From: Moorella glycerini
Lineage (GTDB): Bacteria > Bacillota > DSM-521 > Neomoorellales > Neomoorellaceae
Direction: 5' to 3'
DNA: 64,000 nucleotides
Assembly: GCF_009735625.1 (NCBI RefSeq)
Contig: NZ_CP046244.1
Location: forward strand, 1,736,001-1,800,000
Below, in pieces: positions 8,531 to 38,334 of this stretch (position 1 is its first letter; every line of letters starts with the position of its first letter). Made by a program: the position numbers and the translations under genes. Under the pieces are notes generated by a model. The model had not been told where the DNA came from and ran no database searches. It was given only the letters and a program-made list of their open reading frames with translations.

Positions 8531-8601
8531 GCTTTTCGGAAGATAATGAGGGTCATGCCATCTTGCTATTTGCAAGTTTTAAAAACCAAGGAGTGATCTA
8601 C

Positions 8602-9108: not shown

Positions 9109-9140
9109 TAATTAAAGATATCAGGGGAGGGGGAGGTAAT

Positions 9141-10136: not shown

Positions 10137-10150
10137 AGTGGTGCATTAAA

Positions 10151-10414
10151 TTGTTTGTGATATTAGTATATGACGTTAACGTTAAGAGAGTAGCCAAAGT
10201 ATTAAAAACCTGCCGGCGATATTTACATTGGGTTCAGAATTCAGTCTTGGAAGGAGATATTACAGAAGCAAACCTGAAAAAATTAAAAGTAGAATTAATG
10301 AAGATAATAGATAAGGAGGAGGATTCGATAATTATTTATATCCTACGGACTACTAAATATTCTGCGAGACAGATTGTGGGCCTCAACAAGGGTGGAGAAA
10401 ATTTGTTTATTTAA
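10151..10414 (+). CDS. cas2: CRISPR adaptation protein Cas2
   Basis: Small ferredoxin-fold protein that bridges two Cas1 dimers in the spacer-integration complex. The sequence has FVILVYDVNVKRVAKVLKTC, the conserved beta-strand with the Asp of the family, followed by YLHWVQNSVLEGD and a SIIIYIL strand. TTG at 10151 is preferred because AAGTGGTG lies 7 bases upstream and the product (87 aa) starts at the family's usual position; ATG at 10130 would add seven residues and overlap cas1. It is the last cas gene and is followed by a terminator. Confidence 0.88.
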   Translation: MFVILVYDVNVKRVAKVLKTCRRYLHWVQNSVLEGDITEANLKKLKVELMKIIDKEEDSIIIYILRTTKYSARQIVGLNKGGENLFI

Positions 10415-13451: not shown

Positions 13452-13587
13452 TGTCATTTAGCACATTAAATTAACCACCGTTTTTCAAATTAAAGTAACT
13501 CACGCCGCCGGCACAAACTGCAAGATTATCAAATTACAGCACCCCAAATTCTCAGGAATTGCACATTAGCACAATAAAATCCCCAAA

Positions 13588-13609
13588 GAAAAAAGCCGCT
13601 CAACGCGGC
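13588..13609 (-). terminator. Terminator of the transposon operon (copy 1)
   Basis: Read on the minus strand, GCCGC-GTTGA-GCGGC (13609-13595) is followed by six T residues. It lies directly after the stop of the 103-aa gene and should stop transposon transcription before it runs antisense into array segment 1. The same hairpin is present in copy 3 near 37197-37218; in copy 2 it survives near 27097-27119 but the ISLre2 insertion separates it from the operon. Confidence 0.7.
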
Positions 13610-13921
13610 CTAAAAAGAAGGGGCCTTGAACCGTTCCGCCAATTTTTTATCAAGGGCAGCCAGGCGTTTTCTCTGGAAATCAAATCCTTGTTCCAGTTGC
13701 AACTGGCAAATAAAGCTGTAATAATGGGGTTCCTCGCGGGCGGTATAGAAAGACTCCAGGTATTTTAGCAATTCAGCGTAAAGGTCGCGGGCGAAATCCA
13801 ATACCGGGCGTTCCAATTCCTCACCGTAGGACCCAAAAGTATTCGCCCAGAGGACGAAAGCCAGGATCTCCAGGAGACTTTCCACGTCTCTGGGGGAAGC
13901 AAGCTTAAGCATAGCCACCAC
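13610..13921 (-). CDS. Transposon 103-aa accessory protein (copy 1)
   Basis: Unrecognised small protein. It is mostly helical by composition: VESLLEILAFVLWANTFGSYGEELERP, then DFARDLYAELLKYLESFYTAREEP, and a basic C-terminus RKRLAALDKKLAERF. It is the last gene of the transposon operon and starts 2 bp after the ATPase stop, suggesting translational coupling. Conservation in copies 1 and 3 suggests a real gene, but ISLre2 has truncated it in copy 2. A role in transposition is inferred from position only. Confidence 0.7.
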   Translation of the reverse strand: MVAMLKLASPRDVESLLEILAFVLWANTFGSYGEELERPVLDFARDLYAELLKYLESFYTAREEPHYYSFICQLQLEQGFDFQRKRLAALDKKLAERFKAPSF

Positions 13922-13923
13922 CC

Positions 13924-14724
13924 TTAGAGGCCAATTTCGGCAGCTGCCTGGCGGACCACATCAGCACTAATCAGCTGGGCTTTAAGCTGGGCGCCCCAGA
14001 GGAGGGAAGTCAGGGCCAGGTTGTTCACCAGGCGCGGCCAGCCGCGGGAGCGAGAAGCGATGGCCTCGACGGCAGGCGGCTCAAATAAAGGCCTGGTAGC
14101 CCCCACCAGGGATAAATGGTGCTCCAGGTAGGCGCCCACCTCCTCACGGTTTAAAGGTTCCACCTGGAAGCGAACCACCAGGCGTTGGGCCAGAGACTGG
14201 GTCTGGTTCAACTCCAAGCGGCTCAACAAAAAAGGCAAGCCGGCCAGGACCAGGATAAAAGGATTAAAGGCGTCCATGGCGAAATTAAAGAGCAGGGCCA
14301 GGTCCAGCAGGAATTTGGGGTTAGCCAGGTGCATCTCATCCAGGATGAAGACGGGCGTAATCTTTTTATCCCGGAAGAACACCTGGACCGCCTGCTGGAT
14401 CTGGTGAAAAAGGTCAATCTTGCGGAAAGACGGTTCTTCCCCCAGGCTCCGGGCCAAACCGCGGTAAAAATCCATGACCGTCCCTGTGGCCAGGGGCAAA
14501 TAAATAACCTTAAAGAGGGCCGGGTTTAAATTAGCACAAAAGACCCGCAAGGCAAAGGTCTTACCGGCTCCCGGTTCTCCCACCAGGACCCCCATGCCCC
14601 GGACGCGGGATAAATACTCCAGCCGGGCCCTCGTTTCTTTTAAACTGCAGGAAAGGAAGGCATCCTGGGGTTTTAGCTCCTTGCCAAAAGGAGCCCCTTT
14701 TAAGCCATAAAAAGCCTGGTACAT
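13924..14724 (-). CDS. Transposon AAA+ ATPase, ExeA/TnsC-like (copy 1)
   Basis: A 266-aa ATPase expected to select or activate the target for the adjacent integrase. It opens MYQAFYGLKGAPFGKELKP, typical of ExeA-like ATPases. Walker A is GVLVGEPGAGKTFALRVF (near residue 54), Walker B is VFILDEMHLANP (near 126), and an arginine-finger region follows at QRLVVRFQVEPLNREEV. ATG at 14724 is chosen because the family N-terminus begins there; it sits 1 bp past the integrase stop, and the longer frame back to 14841 overlaps the integrase. Copies 2 and 3 have Thr where copy 1 has Ala next to the P-loop. Confidence 0.85.
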   Translation of the reverse strand: MYQAFYGLKGAPFGKELKPQDAFLSCSLKETRARLEYLSRVRGMGVLVGEPGAGKTFALRVFCANLNPALFKVIYLPLATGTVMDFYRGLARSLGEEPSFRKIDLFHQIQQAVQVFFRDKKITPVFILDEMHLANPKFLLDLALLFNFAMDAFNPFILVLAGLPFLLSRLELNQTQSLAQRLVVRFQVEPLNREEVGAYLEHHLSLVGATRPLFEPPAVEAIASRSRGWPRLVNNLALTSLLWGAQLKAQLISADVVRQAAAEIGL

Positions 14725-14725
14725 T

Positions 14726-15982
14726 CTAGTTTTGGCCCCCTCCCTGTAAGCTGGCAAAAGAAAGTTTGCTCTCCCGCTTTGCCCGGGCGTTAACACTGAG
14801 CGCCACCGGCTGTGCCACCGCCACCTCTTTACCGGCCACAAAAATCAAGACCCGCTCCAGTTTTTCCGGGTCAAAGCGCACCTCCACCCGGTTGCCGATA
14901 AATTGAGGCGGCACCTCAAAAAGGCGCTTGTTAATGGAGATAGTAGCATCATGATGTACCCGCCGTTCCTCCCGCTTGAAAAAAAGCGGCTCCAGAACAG
15001 CCGGGTCGCTCACCATCTTAACCTGGCTGAACTGGGACATAAACTTATCCAGGGGGCTCATACCCAAAGCACTGTGGACCTGGCGGTGATAATCTTCCTC
15101 CAGCCACTGCCAGAAAGAGCGGTTCAAGTTATCCAGAGATTTAAGGTGTTCATCTTTAACCAGGGGCAAGAAACGCTGCCTGACGGTCAAGAAGAACCTT
15201 TCGATCTTACCCTTGCTCTGCGGGTCATAGGGTTTAGTATTGATCAAGGCTATCCCCAGGGCCGCGCAGGCCAGCTGCAGCTGCTCCGAACGATAGATTT
15301 TACCATTATCCACGTAGACCATCTGCGGAATGCCCCGGCGTAAGATAGCCTCCTTGAAGACCACCTTCAAAGACTCAAACTTCTCGGAAGTAAAAAACTG
15401 GGCAAAAGTCACCAGGCGGGAACAATCATCGATAAAAGCAAAGAGGAAAGTAGCCACCTTTTTGTTGCCAACGCGAAGGTAAGGCCCGGCCGCCACATCC
15501 CCCTGCCAGAGGGTATTCACCGTATCATAGGCAAAGCGTTTCCGTTCCGGCTCCCGCCGCATCTCCCGGCCTAAAAGCCCCCTGGATTTCAGGAAACGGT
15601 AAATGGTAGCGTAAGAAACGGCGTCCGGTAAAATAACACCTTTAGCCACCAGTTGTTCATAAAAGACAGAAGCCGGACAGGAACGCTCCTCCTGGCGCAG
15701 GGCCAGGAGTTGCTCCTGTAACTCCGGGGATAAGGCCCGCGGCCTTCCCCGGTCAGAACGCCTTTTCGGTTTTAACCCCTCAAACCCCTCGCGGCGGTAA
15801 TCCCTGAGCCAGCTGGCAATGGTCTGGGGGCTATAGTCGCAGAGGCCATAATACGGTACTTCATGGGGTCTGGCCGTAATACTCTCCAGGTAGGCCTTCC
15901 TGCTGGCTACCTGACCCTGCAACAACGGCGCAATCAAGCTAAAGCGAAAAAGAGCGATATTTTCCCGGTCCTTCTCGTCCAT
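14726..15982 (-). CDS. Transposon DDE integrase (rve type, copy 1)
   Basis: A 418-aa retroviral-type integrase that should cut and join the transposon ends. The N-terminal helix-turn-helix region includes YSPQTIASWLRDYRREGFEGLKP. The rve core has the three acidic residues in LWQGDVAAGPY, QMVYVDNGKIYRS and DPQSKGKIERFF. A C-terminal Mu-type beta-barrel follows (KRLFEVPPQFIGNRVEVRFDPEKL). ATG at 15982 has GGGGAGGGG 8 bases upstream; a longer frame to 16024 lacks a better ribosome site. Length is shorter than TniA or TnsB (over 500 aa). It is directly followed by the ATPase. Confidence 0.88.
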   Translation of the reverse strand: MDEKDRENIALFRFSLIAPLLQGQVASRKAYLESITARPHEVPYYGLCDYSPQTIASWLRDYRREGFEGLKPKRRSDRGRPRALSPELQEQLLALRQEERSCPASVFYEQLVAKGVILPDAVSYATIYRFLKSRGLLGREMRREPERKRFAYDTVNTLWQGDVAAGPYLRVGNKKVATFLFAFIDDCSRLVTFAQFFTSEKFESLKVVFKEAILRRGIPQMVYVDNGKIYRSEQLQLACAALGIALINTKPYDPQSKGKIERFFLTVRQRFLPLVKDEHLKSLDNLNRSFWQWLEEDYHRQVHSALGMSPLDKFMSQFSQVKMVSDPAVLEPLFFKREERRVHHDATISINKRLFEVPPQFIGNRVEVRFDPEKLERVLIFVAGKEVAVAQPVALSVNARAKRESKLSFASLQGGGQN

Positions 15983-16001
15983 CACAACCCCTCCCCAGGA
16001 T

Positions 16002-16060
16002 TTAAGGTTAACCGGTCCGGTCATTTACCAGTTTAACCTTAACCTGTCCCCCAGGACAGG
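16002..16060 (-). promoter_or_regulatory. Inverted repeats upstream of the transposon integrase
   Basis: Two nested symmetric sites lie between the zinc-ribbon gene and the integrase. TTAAGGTTAA (16002-16011) pairs with TTAACCTTAA (16033-16042), and CCTGTCC (16043-16049) pairs with GGACAGG (16054-16060). Both recur in copies 2 and 3. They could be an operator or internal binding site, or an attenuating hairpin that uncouples the integrase from the upstream gene; the function is not shown. Confidence 0.4.
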
Positions 16061-16124
16061 CAAAAGGTGTGTGGTGGCTAATGTAGCAGGGAGGCTTTAC
16101 GGAACCGGGGAAAGCATGGTAAAA

Positions 16125-16655
16125 TTAATTAGCCATAAAATTGCGCCGGAAATGATTATGGAACCTTTGGGAAAAGGTTTCGGCGTTGGGGAACGCGGCA
16201 ATCATTTCCAGCAATTTTATGGCCCTTTGTTTAAATTCCGGCGGGATTATTTCCTGGTAACCCTGCTCCCGGAAGAAGGCCTGGATGCAATTCATGTTCT
16301 TCGCCCAACGGCGGCGGTAGAACTGGAGCAGCTGGTAGTAAATAAGGAGGCGGGCCTTGGAGAAGAAATATATGAGACAGTCCAGAATGAACTTAAGGGA
16401 ATACTGGTAATACGGCAGGAGAAAGGAAGGCAAAAGAGAGAAGGTGTGCCGGCAGGAGCGGCACCAAAAGCGGCAGATGGGCAGCTGTAGCCACTTTTCC
16501 GAGTCACTACCGGCATTACGCCAGTAAAAACCATGCCGCTTTAGAGCCTGCCGGGCCATACAGATAGGGCAAGACTCTATGACGGGAAACTCATTTTTCT
16601 TACCCCGGGCAGCATAATCCTCCAGGGAAATACCGAAATTGTATACCAGTTGCAT
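16125..16655 (-). CDS. Transposon zinc-ribbon protein, DUF6431-like (copy 1)
   Basis: A 176-aa protein with a zinc-ribbon pattern, CPICMARQALKRHGFYWRN then CRFWCRSCRHTFSLLPSFLLPYYQYS, and a helical C-terminal part ending in a basic FSQRFHNHFRRNF. Zinc-ribbon N-termini of this kind occur in transposon target-selection proteins such as TniQ/TnsD, but no TniQ similarity is clear, so the DUF6431-like label and a DNA-binding or targeting role are inference. ATG at 16655 has GGGGGG upstream, and the gene lies next to the right transposon end, about 140 bp before the integrase. A diverged relative lies at 48561-49127. Confidence 0.7.
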   Translation of the reverse strand: MQLVYNFGISLEDYAARGKKNEFPVIESCPICMARQALKRHGFYWRNAGSDSEKWLQLPICRFWCRSCRHTFSLLPSFLLPYYQYSLKFILDCLIYFFSKARLLIYYQLLQFYRRRWAKNMNCIQAFFREQGYQEIIPPEFKQRAIKLLEMIAAFPNAETFSQRFHNHFRRNFMAN

Positions 16656-16779
16656 AAACAGCCCCCCAGAATAATTTGCTAAAATTATATCACTTTGGGG
16701 GAACTGTTACATGTTATCTCGATATTTTAAATTGATAAAGTTAGGACTAGTTTTAAGGATGATAGTGTGCTAAATGACA

Positions 16780-19700
16780 AATCTGCACCTGCATTGGTTA
16801 CCATCCTACCTATGAGGCATTGAAACGCAAAACTCCTGCCCGAATCCGCGAGCCGGGCCGTCGTTACCATCCTACCTATGAGGCATTGAAACCACCGGGC
16901 AGGATAAAAACCTCCGGGCCTGTCCCGCCGTTACCATCCTACCTATGAGGCATTGAAACTTCAGACAAATAACCCGATGAAAATGAAAGATTTGCGTTAC
17001 CATCCTACCTATGAGGCATTGAAACCGTGACCCAGCAACGACTGCACGGCAACCAAATCCGCGTTACCATCCTACCTATGAGGCATTGAAACCAGGGCGG
17101 GCCGGGGCACCCTCGTCGCCCCGGCTAAGTTACCATCCTACCTATGAGGCATTGAAACATGACATAACGGCGCAGTAGGACTTTTATGCGCAGGTTACCA
17201 TCCTACCTATGAGGCATTGAAACCTCTCTCCCAATGCTACCGCCGAGCAAAAAGCCGTCCGTTACCATCCTACCTATGAGGCATTGAAACTGCTGATAAA
17301 TTGTGTTATTAAATTGACAGATGCGCGTTACCATCCTACCTATGAGGCATTGAAACCTGAACACCTCCGGTCAATTTAGCAATTTCCAGGTTAAGTTACC
17401 ATCCTACCTATGAGGCATTGAAACGCGGTTCGTAGTCAGGGGCCTGGAGTAATCCAGGGAAAGTTACCATCCTACCTATGAGGCATTGAAACTCAAAAGC
17501 GGATAGGAAACGCGCATATCTTTTGGGAGTTACCATCCTACCTATGAGGCATTGAAACCGGATAAACTCTCATTCAAATTAGCCAGCAGGGTCCGGTTAC
17601 CATCCTACCTATGAGGCATTGAAACCCGGAAAAACCTTCCGGGCCGGTCCGGGTAAAGATAAGTTACCATCCTACCTATGAGGCATTGAAACGCCTTTGC
17701 AAAAGCCGGGGCTATAAAGTCCCTTGCCGCGTTACCATCCTACCTATGAGGCATTGAAACTCGGTTAGCTCGACCGGAAAAGCCCCTTTATCATCCGTTA
17801 CCATCCTACCTATGAGGCATTGAAACTGAGGACCCGCCATTACAGGCCGTAGATGATAACATGTTACCATCCTACCTATGAGGCATTGAAACGCCCGACT
17901 GCACTGCGCGTATTTTGGCTACGCGCGGAGTTACCATCCTACCTATGAGGCATTGAAACTCGTTTCACATCAATGCAGGCGGCGGGTCCGGCCCGGGTTA
18001 CCATCCTACCTATGAGGCATTGAAACTTATCTAGCTTTTTTCCTGCTTATTGTATTGCTTATGTTACCATCCTACCTATGAGGCATTGAAACCGGCTTAC
18101 CGGACCGTTTTTCTCCTGGCTGACGGCGTTACCATCCTACCTATGAGGCATTGAAACATTATCCTGCTGTTTATGTTGTGGCTTATCCTTTCTCCGTTAC
18201 CATCCTACCTATGAGGCATTGAAACCTGTTGGTATTCGGCCATGGCCTGTCCCTGGGCCGGTTACCATCCTACCTATGAGGCATTGAAACGCAGAGCAAC
18301 AGCGGACCCTGCTGGCGAATTTGACGTTACCATCCTACCTATGAGGCATTGAAACGTATCCTGGCGCTGTTGTTTATCGTTATCGGCAAGGTAGTTACCA
18401 TCCTACCTATGAGGCATTGAAACTTACTACCTGCTGGTAGGGCTGGCAGGGTAGCCACGTCCGTTACCATCCTACCTATGAGGCATTGAAACTCGCTGTT
18501 TGGCTGCTTTTCCGCGACGCCCAGGAAAGTTACCATCCTACCTATGAGGCATTGAAACCCAATAACCTCGCAATTACCCCACCAATCATTATAGGGTTAC
18601 CATCCTACCTATGAGGCATTGAAACACCCATATCGCTCTCTCTAGTGCCGGATTGTAGTAAGTTACCATCCTACCTATGAGGCATTGAAACTGTCAAGGA
18701 CCATGCGGCCACCTGTAATTCCCGCCCCGTTACCATCCTACCTATGAGGCATTGAAACATGTTGCGGCCGGGATATAATCCTTTTTTCTTCCATGTTACC
18801 ATCCTACCTATGAGGCATTGAAACTCCTTTTCTTCATATGATTTGCCACCTCATTTCTACCGTTACCATCCTACCTATGAGGCATTGAAACAACTTGTCC
18901 CCGCGCCACAGTGGTACCAGAGCCTCAAGTTACCATCCTACCTATGAGGCATTGAAACCTCGGTGCCCCGGATGCCGTACGCCTCCAGCACCAAGTTACC
19001 ATCCTACCTATGAGGCATTGAAACTGCCGGAAATCCCTAAAGTTGAAACAAGGCAGGTTTGTTACCATCCTACCTATGAGGCATTGAAACATAAGGGTTA
19101 ACTGATGGACCACGTTCCCGTCCGGTTTCGTTACCATCCTACCTATGAGGCATTGAAACTTCAAATTCTTCCCTAGATAAAGTTAGGCCATGTATCCCGT
19201 TACCATCCTACCTATGAGGCATTGAAACTCCTACCCGTCAATTATATATTACCACGAATGTCACGTTACCATCCTACCTATGAGGCATTGAAACCTCGTC
19301 AACCGCACCTTGTCTAGATTAAAGGATACGGTTACCATCCTACCTATGAGGCATTGAAACATAAGGGTTAACTGATGGACCACGTTCCCGTCCGGTTTCG
19401 TTACCATCCTACCTATGAGGCATTGAAACTTCAAATTCTTCCCTAGATAAAGTTAGGCCATGTATCCCGTTACCATCCTACCTATGAGGCATTGAAACTC
19501 CTACCCGTCAATTATATATTACCACGAATGTCACGTTACCATCCTACCTATGAGGCATTGAAACTGGGAGGCGGTGCGGTGAATAAAGCTGATTTTTGCA
19601 GTTACCATCCTACCTATGAGGCATTGAAACTAATACTTGTGCCGGGCTTAATCCTTGTTCCCGGCAAGTTACCATCCTACCTATGAGGCATTGAAACGGG

Positions 19701-22700
19701 GTGGGTCTTAAAAAAGCGGTGGCCCTGGCAATTTGTTACCATCCTACCTATGAGGCATTGAAACGGATAAACTCCGGTTCGGGCCGGAAAACAATCCAGG
19801 GTTACCATCCTACCTATGAGGCATTGAAACTCGTTTAAGAAGCGAGGTGGAGGACCTGGAACGGCTTAGTTACCATCCTACCTATGAGGCATTGAAACTT
19901 CGGCACGGCGGCCCTGCTTTTAGGCCCGGTATGGCAGGTTACCATCCTACCTATGAGGCATTGAAACAGCTGCCGACCGGTACGACATACCGCAAAATCA
20001 TTGGTTACCATCCTACCTATGAGGCATTGAAACTGTATTTCAAAATATAGAACAAGTGTTCATCATTTAGTTACCATCCTACCTATGAGGCATTGAAACG
20101 TGAAGTCATTTGGCCCAGAGTTTGCGGCAACGGTGAGTTACCATCCTACCTATGAGGCATTGAAACTCCTGTCCCGGTGTTCATAAGTGCCGTCGTCCAG
20201 CCGGGTTACCATCCTACCTATGAGGCATTGAAACCTATAGCGGACCGCAGTATTACCATCCAGGACAAGGAGTTACCATCCTACCTATGAGGCATTGAAA
20301 CTGGCTCCCGGCAAAACGTAAACTTCCGGGCCGCTTCCGTTACCATCCTACCTATGAGGCATTGAAACTTATCTAGCCTTTTTCATGCTAGTGGTGCTTT
20401 TAATGGTTACCATCCTACCTATGAGGCATTGAAACCTGGTTGAGGGGACCGTCACGGTCACCCATGCCAGGTTACCATCCTACCTATGAGGCATTGAAAC
20501 CTTTCGTTTATTATTTTATCGACTAAATTTTAGTATGTTACCATCCTACCTATGAGGCATTGAAACGTCGTTATCGTTGCCTTATTTGCGGCTTACCTAG
20601 TAGTTACCATCCTACCTATGAGGCATTGAAACCCGGGCCGGGTTTCCCGGCCAAACTTCTTAAACTCCAGTTACCATCCTACCTATGAGGCATTGAAACG
20701 GAGGTGGTGAGAATGCCCCTTAAAAAGGGTAAATCGTTACCATCCTACCTATGAGGCATTGAAACTGGTATCCTCTCCAGCTTGCGGAATATTTTTGCCC
20801 TAGTTACCATCCTACCTATGAGGCATTGAAACCTCATTTATCACCCCTCCTTTTATTTTACCTTACAAAAGTTACCATCCTACCTATGAGGCATTGAAAC
20901 ATAAGACTGCTATTGCGATTAATCCAGCAATGACTAGTTACCATCCTACCTATGAGGCATTGAAACATAAATGGCTTCCGCCAGGGCCAGGGCCATCCGG
21001 TCCGTTACCATCCTACCTATGAGGCATTGAAACTAAAAGTACTCCTGGGTCTTCGTTTCTTCATCCTCAGTTACCATCCTACCTATGAGGCATTGAAACA
21101 TGATTTTTTCTCCCTCCCTCGTGGTACACTATCTGTTACCATCCTACCTATGAGGCATTGAAACCCGGAGGGGGTGTCAATGATTGGAATCGCTGTTCAA
21201 AGTTACCATCCTACCTATGAGGCATTGAAACTACATCCCTCCATATTTCGCAATATACTTTCTCGCTGGTTACCATCCTACCTATGAGGCATTGAAACTT
21301 TTTTCGTTACTTCGCCGGCAGAAAATTCCCCATTGTTACCATCCTACCTATGAGGCATTGAAACGAATACTGGCCCGCCGGGAGCCTATCCTGGCAAAAT
21401 GTTACCATCCTACCTATGAGGCATTGAAACAAGGCATCCATGCCGGTGACGACAAAATCGATATGCGTTACCATCCTACCTATGAGGCATTGAAACGCGC
21501 CCCCTGGACAGCAGCCCTACCTATAATCCGACCGTTACCATCCTACCTATGAGGCATTGAAACAGTTGTTTCGGCAAACTGGAAATGCGACCCTTGCGGG
21601 TTACCATCCTACCTATGAGGCATTGAAACCTGATATGGCGGCTACCCTGCAGCAGGCTCCATGCAGTTACCATCCTACCTATGAGGCATTGAAACACCGT
21701 CTGGACATACTCCTTCCAGCCCCCCGAAGCAGTTACCATCCTACCTATGAGGCATTGAAACACATGGTCGCTCCACAGTGCAGTTCCAGACAGGGTTTCC
21801 GTTACCATCCTACCTATGAGGCATTGAAACCAAAAACTTCTGCCTTTCAAGCTCCCGCAGGATAAGTTACCATCCTACCTATGAGGCATTGAAACGTGTA
21901 TTCGCGATACACATACACAAACCCCTGCTCAGTTACCATCCTACCTATGAGGCATTGAAACACGCCTGGGCCAGGGATGTGGCACACAAACTGTTCAGTT
22001 ACCATCCTACCTATGAGGCATTGAAACCCGTTTTTGCGGCTCTCCTTGTCTTGGTAGCCTTCTGTTACCATCCTACCTATGAGGCATTGAAACTCGGCCA
22101 CAACGCCAACTTTCACCTGGGAACCGCCAAGTTACCATCCTACCTATGAGGCATTGAAACTTCGTCAGGAAAGAAAGGCGGTGAGAACATGGCAGGGTTA
22201 CCATCCTACCTATGAGGCATTGAAACAGGATATTTGCATAGACGAGGCCAGCCAGTTTACTGAGTTACCATCCTACCTATGAGGCATTGAAACTCCGCTG
22301 TCAGCATGGGCAATGTTTCAATCAGCTTCGGTTACCATCCTACCTATGAGGCATTGAAACCGGTTCCGCAGGGCATTGTAGCGGCGCTGTATGGGGTTAC
22401 CATCCTACCTATGAGGCATTGAAACTTTTGCTTACCATGTCTTAGCCCCACCCATTGTTTTAGTTACCATCCTACCTATGAGGCATTGAAACTTTGCGGT
22501 AGCTACAGTAACAACATCCGAACTGGACAGTTACCATCCTACCTATGAGGCATTGAAACTCCTGTCAGCCAGAAGCAAAGCCGGGTTGCCGCGCCAGTTA
22601 CCATCCTACCTATGAGGCATTGAAACACGCTAAGGACGCTATTATGGCGGCGACTACTGAGGAGTTACCATCCTACCTATGAGGCATTGAAACAAGATAT

Positions 22701-25700
22701 AGACTCCTATGTACTTCTCATTGCGGAGAATGTTACCATCCTACCTATGAGGCATTGAAACTGCGAGTGGCGGCTGGAAAGAGTTTGTGCAGACAGTGTT
22801 ACCATCCTACCTATGAGGCATTGAAACAGGTTACGTAGTAGCGGTTCGCCGTCGCTCCCGCAGCCGGTTACCATCCTACCTATGAGGCATTGAAACTGGC
22901 TACAACTTGGCATTATGTCCGCAACACGTCTACGTTACCATCCTACCTATGAGGCATTGAAACTACGGAAAACCGAAATGAGCATCTCATCTGCGGTGAG
23001 TTACCATCCTACCTATGAGGCATTGAAACAGCCATACCATAGTCAACATTGAGGCTGGCTTTATGTTACCATCCTACCTATGAGGCATTGAAACTGCGGC
23101 AGGTATTAAATGAGCAGCTTGACCGTGAGCATAGTTACCATCCTACCTATGAGGCATTGAAACCCGGTGATGTAGTCGGGCGTGGTGCGGACGGCGAGCC
23201 CGTTACCATCCTACCTATGAGGCATTGAAACCCGGAGGTATGGGTATTGCTGGTGAGGCTGGAGAAGGTTACCATCCTACCTATGAGGCATTGAAACTGG
23301 TATCCCCCTACGGGGATTTCCTGAAAATGAAAAGTTACCATCCTACCTATGAGGCATTGAAACCGCCCTTTTCTGCCTCCTCCTTTCCAGCATCCTTTCG
23401 TTACCATCCTACCTATGAGGCATTGAAACTAATAAAACCCATTCTCGCGTGTTGACCGGAAGCGGCCCGTTACCATCCTACCTATGAGGCATTGAAACGT
23501 CACTTCAATGCGCAGAGGGATCATATCGTCACCTCGTTACCATCCTACCTATGAGGCATTGAAACTCCGATGCAGATCCACGCCGTCGCCATCCAACCAG
23601 GGTTACCATCCTACCTATGAGGCATTGAAACGGCCTTGCCCCATGTTTCCCGCTTCTGGGTTGACCATGTTACCATCCTACCTATGAGGCATTGAAACAT
23701 CTATAAGACATACCGAACTGGGCGATATCGCTGCGTTACCATCCTACCTATGAGGCATTGAAACTTCAGTGCCGCGGTCATGCGGTCATGAAGCTGCAAG
23801 ACGTTACCATCCTACCTATGAGGCATTGAAACATCGCCGCGGTGTCTCAACAGGGTGTGGTGCCCTGGAGTTACCATCCTACCTATGAGGCATTGAAACC
23901 CGGGTCATCGATGATCGCTACATGGGCGCCGCGGCCTGGTTACCATCCTACCTATGAGGCATTGAAACAAATCCGCCGGGCATGGGAACAGGGGAAAGCC
24001 ATTGTTACCATCCTACCTATGAGGCATTGAAACATGCGGCGAAGGTCTCCTCATCGAGGTTGAGCAACGCGTTACCATCCTACCTATGAGGCATTGAAAC
24101 ACCATCTCCAGCTCGGCGGTCAAGGCCGCCTTTTGCGTTACCATCCTACCTATGAGGCATTGAAACGACGATTGGTGATATGGGCGGAGGTGGTGGAGAT
24201 TGGTTACCATCCTACCTATGAGGCATTGAAACGACGAAGGTGCGGCGGCTGCTCTCCGGGCGGCGGAAGTTACCATCCTACCTATGAGGCATTGAAACCC
24301 GTCAATCCAGATGATGCCGTCGTTGTCTGGCCGGTGTTACCATCCTACCTATGAGGCATTGAAACCCCAGCTTCAGGCCGCTTATCTCGGCCCCCTCCCG
24401 GGTTACCATCCTACCTATGAGGCATTGAAACATGACATACTTGCCGCCCCATTCGGGAAGCACCACTAGTTACCATCCTACCTATGAGGCATTGAAACTC
24501 TTTATAACTCGCATATTTTATGCCCACATTATAGGTTACCATCCTACCTATGAGGCATTGAAACACGGGCTCCAGGGCTATAGGTATTATCCGGGCCGCC
24601 CGTTACCATCCTACCTATGAGGCATTGAAACTCGTCCCGCCCGTATCCAGGGCTACCGTATACCCTAGTTACCATCCTACCTATGAGGCATTGAAACTTG
24701 CCTGGGAATTTGTAACGCCGGTCACGCCTGCGAGTTACCATCCTACCTATGAGGCATTGAAACGGTTACTGCAATGATAAAGAAGAGTCCCTGGAACAGT
24801 TACCATCCTACCTATGAGGCATTGAAACTGCTACCGGGCAGCTGGCGCAACAGGCATCCGCTAAGTTACCATCCTACCTATGAGGCATTGAAACTACTCT
24901 TCCACTGCCTGTTGAAAGCCCAGAGCGGCCCCAGTTACCATCCTACCTATGAGGCATTGAAACTACGTCACTGCATAAAATATAATTAGCCCACGGAAGT
25001 TACCATCCTACCTATGAGGCATTGAAACGCGATATAGGCGTCTACCTCCAACCCTACTGGCCCCGTTACCATCCTACCTATGAGGCATTGAAACTCCAGG
25101 GCCTCGCTGAGAATGGCATGAAGATACGTAAGTTACCATCCTACCTATGAGGCATTGAAACACTTTGAGCCGGAGCAGCTGAATAAGGCCGCGGTTCCGT
25201 TACCATCCTACCTATGAGGCATTGAAACCCTGGATCCCAGAACAGCCCCTGATCTCCCTTATGCGGTTACCATCCTACCTATGAGGCATTGAAACGACGG
25301 CAAGAAGTCCAGGGAGCTGAACTTCGGGCGCAGTTACCATCCTACCTATGAGGCATTGAAACAAAACATCTAATCCATAAGTATAGGTTACAACAAACGG
25401 GTTACCATCCTACCTATGAGGCATTGAAACCCCGGTAGCCAGGGCGCGGCAGGACATACTACAAAAAGTTACCATCCTACCTATGAGGCATTGAAACTGC
25501 GATCCGCTTCTTCGTTGCCGAGGTTGCCGCGCCGTTACCATCCTACCTATGAGGCATTGAAACCCCCGCACCATTCGCATTTCCTTGACAGTTTGGCAAG
25601 TTACCATCCTACCTATGAGGCATTGAAACTTGGAAACCGTGCCAATCTAATTAAGTTGCAGGGCGCGTTACCATCCTACCTATGAGGCATTGAAACCCAG

Positions 25701-26959
25701 TTACATCCCAGGTCAATCTCTCCGCCTTTGCGCAGTTACCATCCTACCTATGAGGCATTGAAACAGGGTGAATGGGTGCTTGGAAGCACCGGAGTGTGGG
25801 GTTACCATCCTACCTATGAGGCATTGAAACATCAACCTCCTGCAAAATAAGTCTGACAGTTACAATCAGTTACCATCCTACCTATGAGGCATTGAAACAA
25901 GGCACCCAATTTGCCGACCAGCAGCTGGAACAAGCGTTACCATCCTACCTATGAGGCATTGAAACTTGCCACATACTCGCCAACCGTTATCACCCGGCTT
26001 CGTTACCATCCTACCTATGAGGCATTGAAACACCGTCGCTGGTAGCAATAATAGTCCCGGCCTCGTCGTTACCATCCTACCTATGAGGCATTGAAACGTC
26101 CAGGGCCTCGCTGAGAATGGCATGAAGATACGTAGTTACCATCCTACCTATGAGGCATTGAAACCTTGATGAGGTACCTGATAGCCGTCGCCAGGGTGAG
26201 TTACCATCCTACCTATGAGGCATTGAAACAAAAGTATCAAGCAGAGCTAAAGCTACCCCCCGTGAGTTACCATCCTACCTATGAGGCATTGAAACCTCCT
26301 TGCAGGCGCCGGTATTTTTTAGTACCGCCAGTTACCATCCTACCTATGAGGCATTGAAACTCACCGCAATTTCTCAAGCATATCCAAAACTGCTTTGTGT
26401 TACCATCCTACCTATGAGGCATTGAAACTCCTTCCACCGTCACCGCCTATGAATTGACCTGCACCGTTACCATCCTACCTATGAGGCATTGAAACAGGTC
26501 AAACGCCATCTCCGCCTCTATACGGTCCGAAGCGTTACCATCCTACCTATGAGGCATTGAAACTGGTTAGCACGCTCTGCGTCTGGCTGGTGAGAAAGCT
26601 CGTTACCATCCTACCTATGAGGCATTGAAACCTGTACTGCTACCCCGGCTCCTAACGACATAACCGAGTTACCATCCTACCTATGAGGCATTGAAACCTA
26701 TCCGGCAAGACCTTGCCGGCAATACTCTGCAACGTTACCATCCTACCTATGAGGCATTGAAACTGGTCTTTCTCTCCCCCACCGCGATCGGCACTGGCTC
26801 GGTTACCATCCTACCTATGAGGCATTGAAACACTAATGCTGTGCCAGTATACCTGACCGATGATAAAGTTACCATCCTACCTATGAGGCATTGAAACGAA
26901 GCTAAACCCTATGCTACCTCCTTCATCGACAGCGTTACCATCCTACCTATGAGGCATTG
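16780..26959 (+). CRISPR. CRISPR array segment 2 (153 repeats between transposon copies 1 and 2)
   Basis: It opens with a 17-nt spacer remnant (16780-16796), then 153 repeats from 16797 to a truncated last one at 26934-26959, cut after GGCATTG. Repeat-to-repeat distance stays within 65-69 bp. Repeats are practically invariant. A 3-spacer block is duplicated 270 bp apart (19061-19534), one spacer recurs with a 1-nt shift (25095 and 26098), and several pairs encode homologous peptides. The segment has no leader of its own. Short open frames here repeat SYHPTYEALK or FQCLIGRMVT and are not genes. Confidence 0.98.
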
Positions 26960-27289
26960 TGTCATTTAGCACATTAAATTAACCACCGTTTTTCAAATTA
27001 AAGTAACTCACGCCGCCGGCACAAACTGCAAGATTATCAAATTACAGCACCCCAAATTCTCAGGAATTGCACATTAGCACAATAAAATCCCCAAAGAAAA
27101 AAGCCGCTCAACGCGGCCTAAAAAGAAGGGGCCTTGAACCGTTCCGCCAATTTTTTATCAAGGGCAGCCAGGCGTTTTCTCTGGAAATCAAATCCTTGTT
27201 CCAGTTGCAACTGGCAAATAAAGCTGGTACGTGTCAAGATGTAGTAGGCAAAAAGAGACCTCACATAAAAATCCCATATATATCCAACA

Positions 27290-27414
27290 CCTTTTCCGGC
27301 TCCGGAGTATTGTGCAGTAATTCTCTGCGCCTGTCAAGGTTAAAGCCTGCGGCCGCCTACGGCGACCTTGACAGGCTTCGCGAATTACTGCCTGCTCTAA
27401 TTAAGCCGGAAAAG
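27290..27414 (-). other. Nested palindrome downstream of the ISLre2 transposase
   Basis: The outer arms CCTTTTCCGGCT (27290) and AGCCGGAAAAGG (to 27414) enclose inner arms AGTAATTC...GCCTGTCAAGGT and ACCTTGACAGGC...GAATTACT. The transposase stop lies immediately beside it. The transcript could fold into a long hairpin, acting as a terminator or barrier, or the DNA could form a cruciform near the IS end. Confidence 0.6.
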
Positions 27415-27417
27415 GGG

Positions 27418-28848
27418 TTAGAATATAGCTCCACTAATTCTTGTTAGTTGCCTCAAGGTATATTTAACCCAATCTGTTCCCGCCTCAGGGCCAACAAGGG
27501 CTGGTACTCTCTTCCTTAACCATGCTTCTACGTCTTCTTTAACTATCTTCTTTTCTTTTATTACTTTAACGGGATTCTTTTCTACTTGTGGCATCTTCTT
27601 TTCTAGCCATGCGGCTAATTCTCCATTGGCTTTGAGCATAAGTAATGCTACCATGGCCGTTGCTCCTGCTTCGCTCCAGCTCATTCCCCTCTTTTTCATG
27701 CGAATGGCTATTTTTTTGTCTACTGTTGTTTCGGCTACGCCCATCCCGTATAACTTTAGCCCTTCCAGTTGTCGTGGTAACCGCAAGCGGTAATCTAACA
27801 GGTTATCGCGATATCTTTGACAGTAGTCATATACTTTTTGGCGTTGTTGCTTGTTTTTGCGGTTCGGTGCTTCTTCTATGAGTGCTTCCATGGTGTCCAA
27901 AAAGACCTGCTCTTGACCTTTGGCTAAAATCTCCATTAATCCTCGCGCTGTTTCGTTCCCATAAGCCTGCCTTATATCCCGGTGGAGGTGGTAGCGGTCC
28001 AATTGTACAATGGCTCCTGGTAACTGTTCTTTGGCTGTCTTCTGGATCCAGCTGGCTCCGTCGCCATTGACCACATATATTGTTTTTTCGTCTATCTCGT
28101 AGTACCTGGCTATTTCCGTGGTGAGGGCTTCCCAAAATTGTTCTCCATCTTCATAGATGCCCATTACTACCCGCGGGTTCTTGAGATGCCGGGCATTCCC
28201 TTTTTCTATCCACCCTTCGTATACTATTCCTACTTTTACTTCTATCCGCTCTTGCTTGCTCCTTTGCAGGGGAATCATTATGCCATCGGCTTCGATAAAT
28301 AGTGCCGGTACTTTTTTCTTTTTGCCTTGGGGCTCTTCCCCGCTCACGAATAGCTTGTTGCGCAGGGCTTCTTGCAGTCCTTTTTGTTCCAGTCCATTTC
28401 GTTTTACTTCGCTATGGATGGTCATATGGCTTAATTGGCCCATCCCTGCTTCGGCCATTATTTCCGCTGCCTGCCTGAAGGGTAACCGGGTTGCCAGCGA
28501 TACGGCTAATTTGAGCAGTCTTCCTGTCAGGCGCTTTCCTTGGCGTAAGTTCAGGGCTTCGTCTAACAGAAACCTTCCCTCGCCTCTTTTCTTTTTGCGC
28601 GTCGCTTTGACATATAGTCGGCGCTTAAAGGTTATATCCCCGTACAGGCAGGTGATTGTGCGGTAGCGGAAGCCAGCTATCCTATATCTCTTGGGTTTTG
28701 CTGGCATAAGGGCATCATCCAGGGCTTCCAGTACGGCTACCAATAATCGCCTGGCTATTTGCAGGATAACTTCTTCTAGAGTGTTGAAATTCTCGATACC
28801 ATCTAATAAACTAAAGATGGTAGCGGTACTGGTATTACCGTTTACCAT
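27418..28848 (-). CDS. ISLre2-family transposase (UPF0236)
   Basis: The 476-aa protein matches the ISLre2/UPF0236 type. It has an N-terminal region with YRTITCLYGDITFKRRLY, then a DDE core with FIEADGIMIPLQR, VVNGDGASWIQKTAKE and QLDRYHLHRDIRQAYG, and a C-terminal helical part with MKKRGMSWSEAGATAMVALL. Length is normal and the frame intact. The start is the ATG at 28848, preceded by AAAAGGAGTGAGGTC. It is transcribed in the same direction as the host transposon. Confidence 0.92.
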   Translation of the reverse strand: MVNGNTSTATIFSLLDGIENFNTLEEVILQIARRLLVAVLEALDDALMPAKPKRYRIAGFRYRTITCLYGDITFKRRLYVKATRKKKRGEGRFLLDEALNLRQGKRLTGRLLKLAVSLATRLPFRQAAEIMAEAGMGQLSHMTIHSEVKRNGLEQKGLQEALRNKLFVSGEEPQGKKKKVPALFIEADGIMIPLQRSKQERIEVKVGIVYEGWIEKGNARHLKNPRVVMGIYEDGEQFWEALTTEIARYYEIDEKTIYVVNGDGASWIQKTAKEQLPGAIVQLDRYHLHRDIRQAYGNETARGLMEILAKGQEQVFLDTMEALIEEAPNRKNKQQRQKVYDYCQRYRDNLLDYRLRLPRQLEGLKLYGMGVAETTVDKKIAIRMKKRGMSWSEAGATAMVALLMLKANGELAAWLEKKMPQVEKNPVKVIKEKKIVKEDVEAWLRKRVPALVGPEAGTDWVKYTLRQLTRISGAIF

Positions 28849-29161
28849 AAAGAGACCTCACTCCTTTTACGGTGTTTTTCTTCTTGTGAGGTCTCTTTTC
28901 TCTTTTTTGCTCCTTTTTCCTCCTGCCTACTGTAATTTTACACTAACATAAAGCTGTAATAATGGGGTTCCTCGCGGGCGGTATAGAAAGACTCCAGGTA
29001 TTTTAGCAATTCAGCGTAAAGGTCGCGGGCGAAATCCAATACCGGGCGTTCCAATTCCTCACCGTAGGACCCAAAAGTATTCGCCCAGAGGACGAAAGCC
29101 AGGATCTCCAGGAGACTTTCCACGTCTCTGGGGGAAGCAAGCTTAAGCATAGCCACCACCC

Positions 29162-29962
29162 TTAGAGGCCAATTTCGGCAGCTGCCTGGCGGACCACATC
29201 AGCACTAATCAGCTGGGCTTTAAGCTGGGCGCCCCAGAGGAGGGAAGTCAGGGCCAGGTTGTTCACCAGGCGCGGCCAGCCGCGGGAGCGAGAAGCGATG
29301 GCCTCGACGGCAGGCGGCTCAAATAAAGGCCTGGTAGCCCCCACCAGGGATAAATGGTGCTCCAGGTAGGCGCCCACCTCCTCACGGTTTAAAGGTTCCA
29401 CCTGGAAGCGAACCACCAGGCGTTGGGCCAGAGACTGGGTCTGGTTCAACTCCAAGCGGCTCAACAAAAAAGGCAAGCCGGCCAGGACCAGGATAAAAGG
29501 ATTAAAGGCGTCCATGGCGAAATTAAAGAGCAGGGCCAGGTCCAGCAGGAATTTGGGGTTAGCCAGGTGCATCTCATCCAGGATGAAGACGGGCGTAATC
29601 TTTTTATCCCGGAAGAACACCTGGACCGCCTGCTGGATCTGGTGAAAAAGGTCAATCTTGCGGAAAGACGGTTCTTCCCCCAGGCTCCGGGCCAAACCGC
29701 GGTAAAAATCCATGACCGTCCCTGTGGCCAGGGGCAAATAAATAACCTTAAAGAGGGCCGGGTTTAAATTAGCACAAAAGACCCGCAAGGTAAAGGTCTT
29801 ACCGGCTCCCGGTTCTCCCACCAGGACCCCCATGCCCCGGACGCGGGATAAATACTCCAGCCGGGCCCTCGTTTCTTTTAAACTGCAGGAAAGGAAGGCA
29901 TCCTGGGGTTTTAGCTCCTTGCCAAAAGGAGCCCCTTTTAAGCCATAAAAAGCCTGGTACAT
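29162..29962 (-). CDS. Transposon AAA+ ATPase, ExeA/TnsC-like (copy 2)
   Basis: Same protein as in copy 1 apart from Thr for Ala after the P-loop (GKTFTLRVF), a state shared with copy 3. Walker A and B motifs are intact. It lies 1 bp after the integrase stop and 2 bp before the truncated 103-aa gene. Confidence 0.85.
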   Translation of the reverse strand: MYQAFYGLKGAPFGKELKPQDAFLSCSLKETRARLEYLSRVRGMGVLVGEPGAGKTFTLRVFCANLNPALFKVIYLPLATGTVMDFYRGLARSLGEEPSFRKIDLFHQIQQAVQVFFRDKKITPVFILDEMHLANPKFLLDLALLFNFAMDAFNPFILVLAGLPFLLSRLELNQTQSLAQRLVVRFQVEPLNREEVGAYLEHHLSLVGATRPLFEPPAVEAIASRSRGWPRLVNNLALTSLLWGAQLKAQLISADVVRQAAAEIGL

Positions 29963-29963
29963 T

Positions 29964-31220
29964 CTAGTTTTGGCCCCCTCCCTGTAAGCTGGCAAAAGAA
30001 AGTTTGCTCTCCCGCTTTGCCCGGGCGTTAACACTGAGCGCCACCGGCTGTGCCACCGCCACCTCTTTACCGGCCACAAAAATCAAGACCCGCTCCAGTT
30101 TTTCCGGGTCAAAGCGCACCTCCACCCGGTTGCCGATAAATTGAGGCGGCACCTCAAAAAGGCGCTTGTTAATGGAGATAGTAGCATCATGATGTACCCG
30201 CCGTTCCTCCCGCTTGAAAAAAAGCGGCTCCAGAACAGCCGGGTCGCTCACCATCTTAACCTGGCTGAACTGGGACATAAACTTATCCAGGGGGCTCATA
30301 CCCAAAGCACTGTGGACCTGGCGGTGATAATCTTCCTCCAGCCACTGCCAGAAAGAGCGGTTCAAGTTATCCAGAGATTTAAGGTGTTCATCTTTAACCA
30401 GGGGCAAGAAACGCTGCCTGACGGTCAAGAAGAACCTTTCGATCTTACCCTTGCTCTGCGGGTCATAGGGTTTAGTATTGATCAAGGCTATCCCCAGGGC
30501 CGCGCAGGCCAGCTGCAGCTGCTCCGAACGATAGATTTTACCATTATCCACGTAGACCATCTGCGGAATGCCCCGGCGTAAGATAGCCTCCTTGAAGACC
30601 ACCTTCAAAGACTCAAACTTCTCGGAAGTAAAAAACTGGGCAAAAGTCACCAGGCGGGAACAATCATCGATAAAAGCAAAGAGGAAAGTAGCCACCTTTT
30701 TGTTGCCAACGCGAAGGTAAGGCCCGGCCGCCACATCCCCCTGCCAGAGGGTATTCACCGTATCATAGGCAAAGCGTTTCCGTTCCGGCTCCCGCCGCAT
30801 CTCCCGGCCTAAAAGCCCCCTGGATTTCAGGAAACGGTAAATGGTAGCGTAAGAAACGGCGTCCGGTAAAATAACACCTTTAGCCACCAGTTGTTCATAA
30901 AAGACAGAAGCCGGACAGGAACGCTCCTCCTGGCGCAGGGCCAGGAGTTGCTCCTGTAACTCCGGGGATAAGGCCCGCGGCCTTCCCCGGTCAGAACGCC
31001 TTTTCGGTTTTAACCCCTCAAACCCCTCGCGGCGGTAATCCCTGAGCCAGCTGGCAATGGTCTGGGGGCTATAGTCGCAGAGGCCATAATACGGTACTTC
31101 ATGGGGTCTGGCCGTAATACTCTCCAGGTAGGCCTTCCTGCTGGCTACCTGACCCTGCAACAACGGCGCAATCAAGCTAAAGCGAAAAAGAGCGATATTT
31201 TCCCGGTCCTTCTCGTCCAT
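29964..31220 (-). CDS. Transposon DDE integrase (rve type, copy 2)
   Basis: Translated sequence identical to copy 1, with all three catalytic acidic residues present (GDVAAG, VYVDNGK, GKIERFF). The same GGGGAGGGG ribosome site precedes the ATG at 31220, and the inverted repeats upstream recur at 31240-31298. An active source of mobility together with the neighbouring ATPase is plausible. Confidence 0.88.
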   Translation of the reverse strand: MDEKDRENIALFRFSLIAPLLQGQVASRKAYLESITARPHEVPYYGLCDYSPQTIASWLRDYRREGFEGLKPKRRSDRGRPRALSPELQEQLLALRQEERSCPASVFYEQLVAKGVILPDAVSYATIYRFLKSRGLLGREMRREPERKRFAYDTVNTLWQGDVAAGPYLRVGNKKVATFLFAFIDDCSRLVTFAQFFTSEKFESLKVVFKEAILRRGIPQMVYVDNGKIYRSEQLQLACAALGIALINTKPYDPQSKGKIERFFLTVRQRFLPLVKDEHLKSLDNLNRSFWQWLEEDYHRQVHSALGMSPLDKFMSQFSQVKMVSDPAVLEPLFFKREERRVHHDATISINKRLFEVPPQFIGNRVEVRFDPEKLERVLIFVAGKEVAVAQPVALSVNARAKRESKLSFASLQGGGQN

Positions 31221-31362
31221 CACAACCCCTCCCCAGGATTTAAGGTTAACCGGTCCGGTCATTTACCAGTTTAACCTTAACCTGTCCCCCAGGACAGGCA
31301 AAAGGTGTGTGGTGGCTAATGTAGCAGGGAGGCTTTACGGAACCGGGGAAAGCATGGTAAAA

Positions 31363-31893
31363 TTAATTAGCCATAAAATTGCGCCGGAAATGATTATGGA
31401 ACCTTTGGGAAAAGGTTTCGGCGTTGGGGAACGCGGCAATCATTTCCAGCAATTTTATGGCCCTTTGTTTAAATTCCGGCGGGATTATTTCCTGGTAACC
31501 CTGCTCCCGGAAGAAGGCCTGGATGCAATTCATGTTCTTCGCCCAACGGCGGCGGTAGAACTGGAGCAGCTGGTAGTAAATAAGGAGGCGGGCCTTGGAG
31601 AAGAAATATATGAGACAGTCCAGAATGAACTTAAGGGAATACTGGTAATACGGCAGGAGAAAGGAAGGCAAAAGAGAGAAGGTGTGCCGGCAGGAGCGGC
31701 ACCAAAAGCGGCAGATGGGCAGCTGTAGCCACTTTTCCGAGTCACTACCGGCATTACGCCAGTAAAAACCATGCCGCTTTAGAGCCTGCCGGGCCATACA
31801 GATAGGGCAAGACTCTATGACGGGAAACTCATTTTTCTTACCCCGGGCAGCATAATCCTCCAGGGAAATACCGAAATTGTATACCAGTTGCAT
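31363..31893 (-). CDS. Transposon zinc-ribbon protein, DUF6431-like (copy 2)
   Basis: Identical in translation to copy 1 (176 aa), with CPIC and CRSC zinc ligands. It lies next to the right transposon end, the end whose flank CCTTAT pairs with the left flank of copy 1. Confidence 0.7.
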   Translation of the reverse strand: MQLVYNFGISLEDYAARGKKNEFPVIESCPICMARQALKRHGFYWRNAGSDSEKWLQLPICRFWCRSCRHTFSLLPSFLLPYYQYSLKFILDCLIYFFSKARLLIYYQLLQFYRRRWAKNMNCIQAFFREQGYQEIIPPEFKQRAIKLLEMIAAFPNAETFSQRFHNHFRRNFMAN

Positions 31894-32017
31894 AAACAGC
31901 CCCCCAGAATAATTTGCTAAAATTATATCACTTTGGGGGAACTGTTACATGTTATCTCGATATTTTAAATTGATAAAGTTAGGACTAGTTTTAAGGATGA
32001 TAGTGTGCTAAATGACA

Positions 32018-34976
32018 CCTTATGTGGCTGCGTTACCATCCTACCTATGAGGCATTGAAACCCATGATGGGGAAATAGTTCGCGGGCAATCTCTTTGTTA
32101 CCATCCTACCTATGAGGCATTGAAACCGGTCATCTTCAATAATTCCGGCCTTCTCAAGAATGTGTTACCATCCTACCTATGAGGCATTGAAACACCGCCC
32201 GCTCAAACTGCTGCTGGCTTTTTTGGTACTGTTACCATCCTACCTATGAGGCATTGAAACATAAAATAAGCCAACTTTCCGCTGGCTCCGGGCCAGGTTA
32301 CCATCCTACCTATGAGGCATTGAAACCTGATCAACACCAGATACGAGGCCAAACTGCCGACAGTTACCATCCTACCTATGAGGCATTGAAACTCAATATG
32401 GTAAATGGGCAAGGCTCCTTTGACGTTCGTTACCATCCTACCTATGAGGCATTGAAACTGGCTGTTGCTAGTAAAACTGGCTACAAGCCGAATGTTACCA
32501 TCCTACCTATGAGGCATTGAAACCGGTGGTGGCGAAGGCTACGGGATTCGGGTTATCTTCGGTTACCATCCTACCTATGAGGCATTGAAACTTGCGGCGG
32601 GAGGCTGTGGTAACCATGGACGCCATATTACCATCCTACCTATGAGGCATTGAAACACACTATCAATGTTGACAACATAAATAGCCGTCCCTCCGTTACC
32701 ATCCTACCTATGAGGCATTGAAACCCGGGCTCGAAGCGGGGAACGTTGGCGGCGACCTGGGTTACCATCCTACCTATGAGGCATTGAAACGAGTACCTGG
32801 CTGGTGCTATACGTGCTCTTCCGCAGGTTACCATCCTACCTATGAGGCATTGAAACTTTCCGGTGGCGAAAGTGCCACCACCTCAAGCAGGCGTTACCAT
32901 CCTACCTATGAGGCATTGAAACCCACCTTCTCCACAATCGCCTGCCGCCGGTATCTCAGTTACCATCCTACCTATGAGGCATTGAAACACCTGCAACCGG
33001 GCCACTTCGTAGCCCATGTAGGTGCGTTACCATCCTACCTATGAGGCATTGAAACTTGGATCTTTGTCTACGTAGTAGTCTGTAATGATCCGTTACCATC
33101 CTACCTATGAGGCATTGAAACCCGGTTTCAGGGTTCCATTCGAGTAGGGTAATCGTCATGTTACCATCCTACCTATGAGGCATTGAAACTTGCGGCGGGA
33201 GGCTGTGGTAACCATGGACGCCATCGTTACCATCCTACCTATGAGGCATTGAAACTCCAGTCTATCCTACAGGATCCCGGCCTGCCGGTGGGTTACCATC
33301 CTACCTATGAGGCATTGAAACCGGCTGGAAAGCCTGGCTTCCCGCCAGCTTAATCAAGTTACCATCCTACCTATGAGGCATTGAAACACCGACCGAACTG
33401 CCCGGGGCCGAAGTTCCCGTGGGAGTTACCATCCTACCTATGAGGCATTGAAACCGACCTGGGTATCCGGCTTTTGCGGCAGGCTGGCCGCGTTACCATC
33501 CTACCTATGAGGCATTGAAACTGGCTTACTACCAGTGCATCCGCCGATGTTGGCGGGTTACCATCCTACCTATGAGGCATTGAAACAAAAGAGAGGTTGG
33601 ATTTATCATGACGAGGTCTGTAGTTACCATCCTACCTATGAGGCATTGAAACTTACCAAAGCCGCTCAGAACTAAGGGTGCTATTAGAGGTTACCATCCT
33701 ACCTATGAGGCATTGAAACCTGGATGAGATCGCACGCAAGCCTGTTACGGTAGTATGTTACCATCCTACCTATGAGGCATTGAAACCCCCAGTAGTTTTC
33801 AAGAAAATCCACCTCCTCCTGGTTACCATCCTACCTATGAGGCATTGAAACAGGGAGGCCAAGGTAAGAGACGCGATTACTCAAGCGGGGTTACCATCCT
33901 ACCTATGAGGCATTGAAACATGAGCAATGCGGAATGGGCCGCCCTGGCATTGTGGTTACCATCCTACCTATGAGGCATTGAAACCGGCCCTCCTGCACCT
34001 CGCCGTCCGGGCCGCCCTGGCGTTACCATCCTACCTATGAGGCATTGAAACTCATTGGGACATGGAATAACATCTGGCTCACGGCTTGTTACCATCCTAC
34101 CTATGAGGCATTGAAACAAGACGTCTGGCGGATGACGGTCGGGGCGCTGACGTCTGTTACCATCCTACCTATGAGGCATTGAAACGGGATAGCAACGGGG
34201 CATTAATTGATGTTGCGGCCAAGTTACCATCCTACCTATGAGGCATTGAAACTCAGGTAAATGCCGTATTCCCCTGATTAAATGAGTAAGTTACCATCCT
34301 ACCTATGAGGCATTGAAACGAATTGGCGGTTCTCCAGGGGTTTCCGGCGGTTATGTTACCATCCTACCTATGAGGCATTGAAACCAATTTTGAACGTAGG
34401 TAATTTTTATAGCGGAAGTGTAGGTTACCATCCTACCTATGAGGCATTGAAACTATAATGAGATTGTCCGCTAACGCCTGTTTTAGTTAAGTTACCATCC
34501 TACCTATGAGGCATTGAAACATGACCGGGACCCGGTAGGTTTAATTCTTACTCAGAGTTACCATCCTACCTATGAGGCATTGAAACACAACCTGAGCGAT
34601 GCGACCACTCTGGCAACGGCTATGTTACCATCCTACCTATGAGGCATTGAAACTATACATCCTAACGGGTTTAGGGATTTTTTGGTCTGCGTTACCATCC
34701 TACCTATGAGGCATTGAAACTCGAAGTAAGTACACTGCGCCTTGCATTTCTGGCAAGTTACCATCCTACCTATGAGGCATTGAAACCTCGCAAAGGCATA
34801 TCTCATGCCAGCCGATATTCTCCGTTACCATCCTACCTATGAGGCATTGAAACGGGTCCCCTACAACGTATCCCGCTCCTGAATGATAAGTTACCATCCT
34901 ACCTATGAGGCATTGAAACAGGCTGTTTCCTACCTGTTCAAACGTAAAATCGGCCATGTTACCATCCTACCTATGA
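32018..34976 (+). CRISPR. CRISPR array segment 3 (44 full repeats plus one split repeat)
   Basis: It begins with the 14-nt right part of the spacer cut at 13451 (CCTTATGTGGCTGC). Repeats run from 32032 to 34890; a 45th at 34958 is cut after CTATGA by transposon copy 3 and resumes at 40389. The repeat at 32627 starts with A instead of G. The spacer at 32592 recurs at 33190. Spacers are about 35-39 nt. Confidence 0.97.
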
Positions 34977-37530: not shown

Positions 37531-37532
37531 CC

Positions 37533-38333: not shown

Positions 38334-38334
38334 T

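Follow-up and report, generated by a model that had tools for sequence, protein, structure and literature searches.

Two spacers in a CRISPR array of Moorella glycerini, referred to here as A and B, are very probably memories of the same phage gene, the longer of two tail-tube genes, taken from two related, diverged siphophage-like viruses. Both lie in the window, the whole stretch of 64,000 nucleotides that was analysed, and together they name a phage family and a gene that the CRISPR system of this host has met at least twice. This is ordinary, well-documented CRISPR behaviour, and the finding leaves the known picture of CRISPR unchanged; what it adds is the name of the phage gene.

Two homologous spacers in one array block

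Counting near-copies, the repeat GTTACCATCCTACCTATGAGGCATTGAAAC occurs 242 times in the window, always on the forward strand. The repeats are grouped in five main blocks and a two-repeat remnant and together delimit 236 spacers. A and B are exact spacers, each flanked by intact 30-nt repeats, and share one block (Table 1). As the initial annotation had reported, the reverse complement of A is identical to B at 27 of 36 positions at offset 0, which establishes both their homology and their opposite orientation, and the peptides that it read from them are indeed encoded in frame 2, ASGGWKEYVQT for A and ASGGWKEFVQT for B, with 10 of 11 residues identical. Its statement that the differences fall almost all at third codon positions needs to be amended: eight of the nine leave the amino acid unchanged, but only six are at third positions. 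They consist of five lone third-position changes, a three-base serine switch (TCG/AGT) and a second-position change that exchanges Tyr for Phe (TAT/TTT).

Leaving aside exact duplicates and one pair from a single site shifted by one base, A and B are the most similar of all pairs among the 236 spacers. Their ungapped score (+1/-1) is 18, compared with best scores of 9, 14 and 11 in three shuffled spacer sets, and at the peptide level they score 58, compared with a shuffled maximum of 40. When nine mismatches were placed at random, 84 of 20,000 simulations (0.4%) retained 10 or more identical residues in the best frame of the six. Counting all pairs in both orientations, one obtains a binomial expectation of about 0.001 for register 0, which rises to about 0.03 when any of the 25 offsets may be used. 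The latter value is not vanishing on its own, so that a fortuitous likeness between unrelated spacers deserves mention; nevertheless, the pattern of silent changes, and the fact that each spacer is independently homologous to the same codons of a single gene family, leave almost no room for it.

Two other homologous pairs exceed the shuffled peptide maximum, both in the same orientation: 16893-16929 and 20302-20338 (GPEVFILPG/GPEVYVLPG, score 52), and 18027-18062 and 20369-20405 (YLAFFLLIVLL/YLAFFMLVVLL, score 48). A and B are thus the sole pair of the three in opposite orientation.

Table 1. Positions in the window of the cas genes, the array block with A and B, other spacers matching the same phage family, and transposons
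Feature	Position	Strand	Remarks
cas6	24-779	+	over cut-off
cas8b-like gene (Cas_TM1802)	814-2976	+	PF09484
ISL3 transposase gene	3115-4335		between the cas8b-like gene and cas7
cas7	4379-5350	+	TIGR02590 E 2e-43 (below cut-off); TIGR01595 over cut-off
cas5	5379-6113	+	TIGR02593 over cut-off
cas3	6101-8530	+	Cas3 core over cut-off
cas4	8518-9108	+	
cas1b	9078-10136	+	
cas2	10130-10414	+	TIGR01573 over cut-off
Array block	16797-26963	+	153 repeats; contains A and B, uninterrupted
Spacer A	21696-21731	+	no. 74 of 152 in block; reverse complement encodes the peptide; most likely long tail-tube gene
Spacer B	22762-22797	+	no. 90 of 152 in block; sense strand encodes the peptide; same gene type as A
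Spacer	20100-20136	+	tape-measure gene, same prophage; 6 mismatches, PAM TTA
Spacer	21831-21865	+	116-aa ORF two genes after the long tail-tube gene; 7 mismatches; ILRELERQKFL
Spacer	22560-22596	+	624-aa tail-region protein, same prophage; 6 mismatches
Spacer	26564-26601	+	same 624-aa protein; 6 mismatches
Spacer	32989-33025	+	start of tape-measure region, same prophage; 6 mismatches, PAM TTT
Spacer	34052-34087	+	tape-measure gene; 8 mismatches
Spacer	34118-34155	+	tape-measure gene (DVWRMTVGALTS); 4 mismatches in contig L063
Spacer	46346-46382	+	gene downstream of tape measure, same phage family; 7 mismatches
Transposon, first copy	13452-16779		array break
Transposon, second copy	about 26960-32018		array break
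Transposon, third copy	about 37099-40389		array break

The longer tail-tube gene as the probable target

A degenerate pattern of the peptide, run with two mismatches allowed over 22 genomes of the class, matched A, B and, as the sole site outside these spacers, FASGGWKEFVRTVKGWSG in a same-family prophage (FASGGWKEFVRTV in prophage G017), where it is part of a 204-aa protein. The neighbouring gene upstream encodes a 128-aa protein of the tail tube (Pfam PF06199, phrog_1407), and before it come genes for a tail terminator (PF12691) and for an HK97-gp10-like protein. Two small genes and then the tape-measure protein follow on the 3' side of the 204-aa gene, and the major head protein is found on the other side. 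The long protein matches phrog_1407, the phage major tail or tail-tube family, over its C-terminal half (E 9.8e-11), whereas almost the whole of its short paralogue is covered by the match (E 1.1e-25); the short form also matches PF06199 (Phage_tail_2). The additional N-terminal ~95 residues of the long form lie outside the phrog_1407 match, and this form has no Pfam match.

Homologues of the long protein were found on 22 viral contigs and on 9 genome contigs from Firmicutes MAGs, including Dethiobacter and Fermentithermobacillaceae. They keep the signature T-F-x-S-x-G-W-K-E, in which the alignment shows no variation at T116, F118, S120, G122 and W123 and very little at K124 and E125. The part of the protein that A and B encode is among its most conserved. 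This family of siphophage-like (pro)phages of Firmicutes has two neighbouring tail-tube proteins, and ASGGWKE(Y/F)VQT is the hallmark motif of the longer one (about 204 aa). The best homologue matches A at 27 of 36 positions (9 mismatches) and B at 28 of 36 (8 mismatches), while the reversed spacers used as a control never came below 11 mismatches. Both spacers match the same codons of one gene type, the long tail-tube gene, in the same-family prophage and in viral contigs, and not unrelated sequences in different genes. Judging from these homologues, which carry 8-10 mismatches, the longer tail-tube gene is most likely the target of both, in line with the single phage gene postulated in the initial annotation.

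Viral and genome contigs, phage records and one hundred relatives yielded no perfect protospacer for A or B, and no near-perfect one was found in a known virus, where the best matches are those with 8 (B) and 9 (A) mismatches. Degenerate patterns of the full peptide and of a shorter core had no match in the viral contigs, nor had the shorter core in the genome contigs. Megablast of the array against GenBank phages returned nothing, blastn of B against phages gave only one weak chance match, and no self-targeting site with two mismatches or fewer was found elsewhere in the genome. Where a nucleotide match is absent, spacer pairs read as peptides can reveal the target. A limited literature search found no direct precedent, which is no evidence of novelty.

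In most phages of the family, the motif occurs in two tail-tube genes, one short and one long. A single virus might thus have supplied both spacers, with A and B directed at its paralogues of about 128 aa (short) and about 204 aa (long). The paralogues adjoin in these phages and both contain GWKE, the two copies within one phage also share IQT in L023 and L024, and B matches a short copy there at 26 of 36 positions. However, the residue before Ser is Asp (F-D-S) in 16 of 16 distinct short copies and in no long-type row, the labels short and long having been assigned by that same residue, in agreement with gene positions. Wherever both genes were found, the Asp-type motif is in the upstream, short gene. 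Ala is the commonest residue at this position in the long-type rows (11 of 26, a set that includes one spurious match on the minus strand of L021). As both spacers read A-S-G-G, both point to the long gene. A, moreover, matches a short copy at 23 positions at best, versus 27 for a long one. We consider it quite unlikely that one phage gave rise to both spacers through its two paralogues.

As one long copy is expected per phage, A and B are most simply explained by two different source viruses, or by one lineage sampled at different times with two alleles. Between two long genes, 26-27 matching positions in the 36-mer go with 60-75% protein identity, and 29-31 with 75-95%. With 25% nucleotide divergence and a near-constant peptide, A and B resemble members of the family with roughly 65-85% identical tail proteins, which is consistent with the two related viruses that had been proposed at the outset.

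PAM sites and the shared boundaries of A and B

The window encodes the effector set of a type I-B system, with Cas3, Cas5b, a Csh2-type Cas7, a Cas8b-like protein and Cas6, and all three adaptation genes, cas1b, cas2 and cas4. Ten protospacers with four mismatches or fewer establish a 5' TTN consensus for its PAM, with T at -3 in all ten, T at -2 in eight and G or A at -1 in nine. TTN, TTG and TTA are catalogued as type I-B PAMs, and repeats ending in ATTGAAAC fit that PAM orientation (PMC8482600). Type I-B PAMs vary by repeat type, and the Moorella example of the catalogue is CCA (PMC8482600), unlike the TTN of the present array. In its Cas7/Csh2-like, Cas5b, Cas3, Cas4, Cas1b and Cas2 proteins, its repeat end and its 5' PAM, the system otherwise shows no essential difference from known type I-B adaptation with a TTN-type PAM. 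A type III effector sharing the array, for which the strand would matter in RNA targeting, was considered and rejected: no Cas10 was found in the genome, with one sub-cut-off match of 78 positions for Csm1 and none for Cmr2. Strand choice is therefore unlikely to matter for RNA targeting.

Most probably, Cas1-Cas2-Cas4 acted on two separate occasions, each time capturing a 36-bp piece beside a 5'-TTN PAM. The PAM of A would be the reverse complement of the Lys codon in V-K-G, read as TTN, and the TT beside B would belong to the conserved Phe codon of T-F-A-S, presumably as part of the PAM that B used. The Phe and Lys codons face each other at a distance of 12 codons, so that 36-nt spacers share both ends, and A and B would lie on opposite strands because A uses the Lys-side PAM and B adjoins the TT of the Phe codon. 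Purifying selection on a conserved structural motif probably accounts for the silent differences. In such a scheme, conserved structural codons fix the places of PAMs, so that related phages may be hit at the same 36 bp on either strand.

In the 26 long-type rows, the upstream flank of A, formed by the codon that follows Val (mostly Lys or Asn) in reverse complement, reads TTN in 17. That of B, which comprises the end of the Thr codon and the TT of Phe, reads NTT, usually ATT, CTT or GTT, and is TTT in only 3. A thus has a standard PAM in the homologues; B would have had one only if its virus used ACT for Thr, or if the machinery slipped by one base. Slipped or flipped acquisition of the second spacer is therefore possible. 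In the latter case, B would have been captured in a related virus at the site defined by the PAM of A and inserted in the reverse orientation. The exact coincidence of the boundaries and the contrast between the TTN flank of A and the usual flanks of B would fit this scenario, and flipped acquisition is documented in types I-F and I-E (PMC5059440). Nevertheless, none of the ten good protospacers of the array has a PAM on the 3' side, and the array itself contains a one-nucleotide shift beside a TTT run: spacers 25095-25131 and 26098-26134 derive from the same protospacer, with PAM TTG for one and TTT for the other, and a 5.9-kb contig from a same-family genome matches this protospacer exactly. 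Flips in type I-F are estimated at less than 0.5%, versus 7-10% for slipped or non-canonical PAMs (PMC5059440). One-nucleotide shifts around a PAM like those of Pectobacterium type I-F, and possibly orientation errors, are inferred here from sequence in another subtype. Flipping is the rarer alternative to a one-base slip, and we regard it as unlikely for B; if it did occur, the pair would document an orientation error that arose naturally in a type I-B system with Cas4. Priming of the acquisition of A by B was also considered and appears to be a poor candidate, as the crRNA of B would have four mismatches at seed positions 4-7 against the source of A.

Other spacers and the history of the array

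We compared translated spacers with all long ORFs of the phage contigs, and real spacers scored up to 69, compared with up to 46 for shuffled ones. At least eight further spacers match the head-tail module of the same phage family (Table 1), and the one at 21831 is only two spacers from A. In addition, spacer 12490 matches the tape measure weakly, and spacers 32725 and 26898 match a lectin-domain protein encoded downstream of the tape measure, perhaps a fibre. The host lineage has met this phage family repeatedly.

Repeat orientation, together with the degenerate repeats in which the blocks end on the right, places the leader on the left, so that A is probably 16 spacers younger than B. Rearrangement by transposons affects the order of the blocks, but A and B share an uninterrupted one. 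The transposon found at three array breaks encodes a DUF6431 protein, an rve/Mu-C transposase and an AAA ATPase, and has the ends TGTCATTTAGCACA and TGTGCTAAATGACA. The left flank of its first copy and the right flank of its second join as a single 36-nt spacer, with CCTTAT common to both, which suggests that recombination between copies has reshuffled the array blocks. The idea of an array-targeting transposon is unsupported, as 3 of the 12 copies in the genome are in the array region.

A three-spacer segment is exactly duplicated (19061-19294 and 19331-19564), as is one more spacer at a distance (32592-32626 and 33190-33225). All spacers are 35-39 nt long except that at 41205-41258, whose 54 nt apparently contain a degraded repeat remnant, CATCATACTTATGGATTAGATGCAAT. 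Finally, the presence of SpoVR and YhbH genes suggests that the host is a spore-former.
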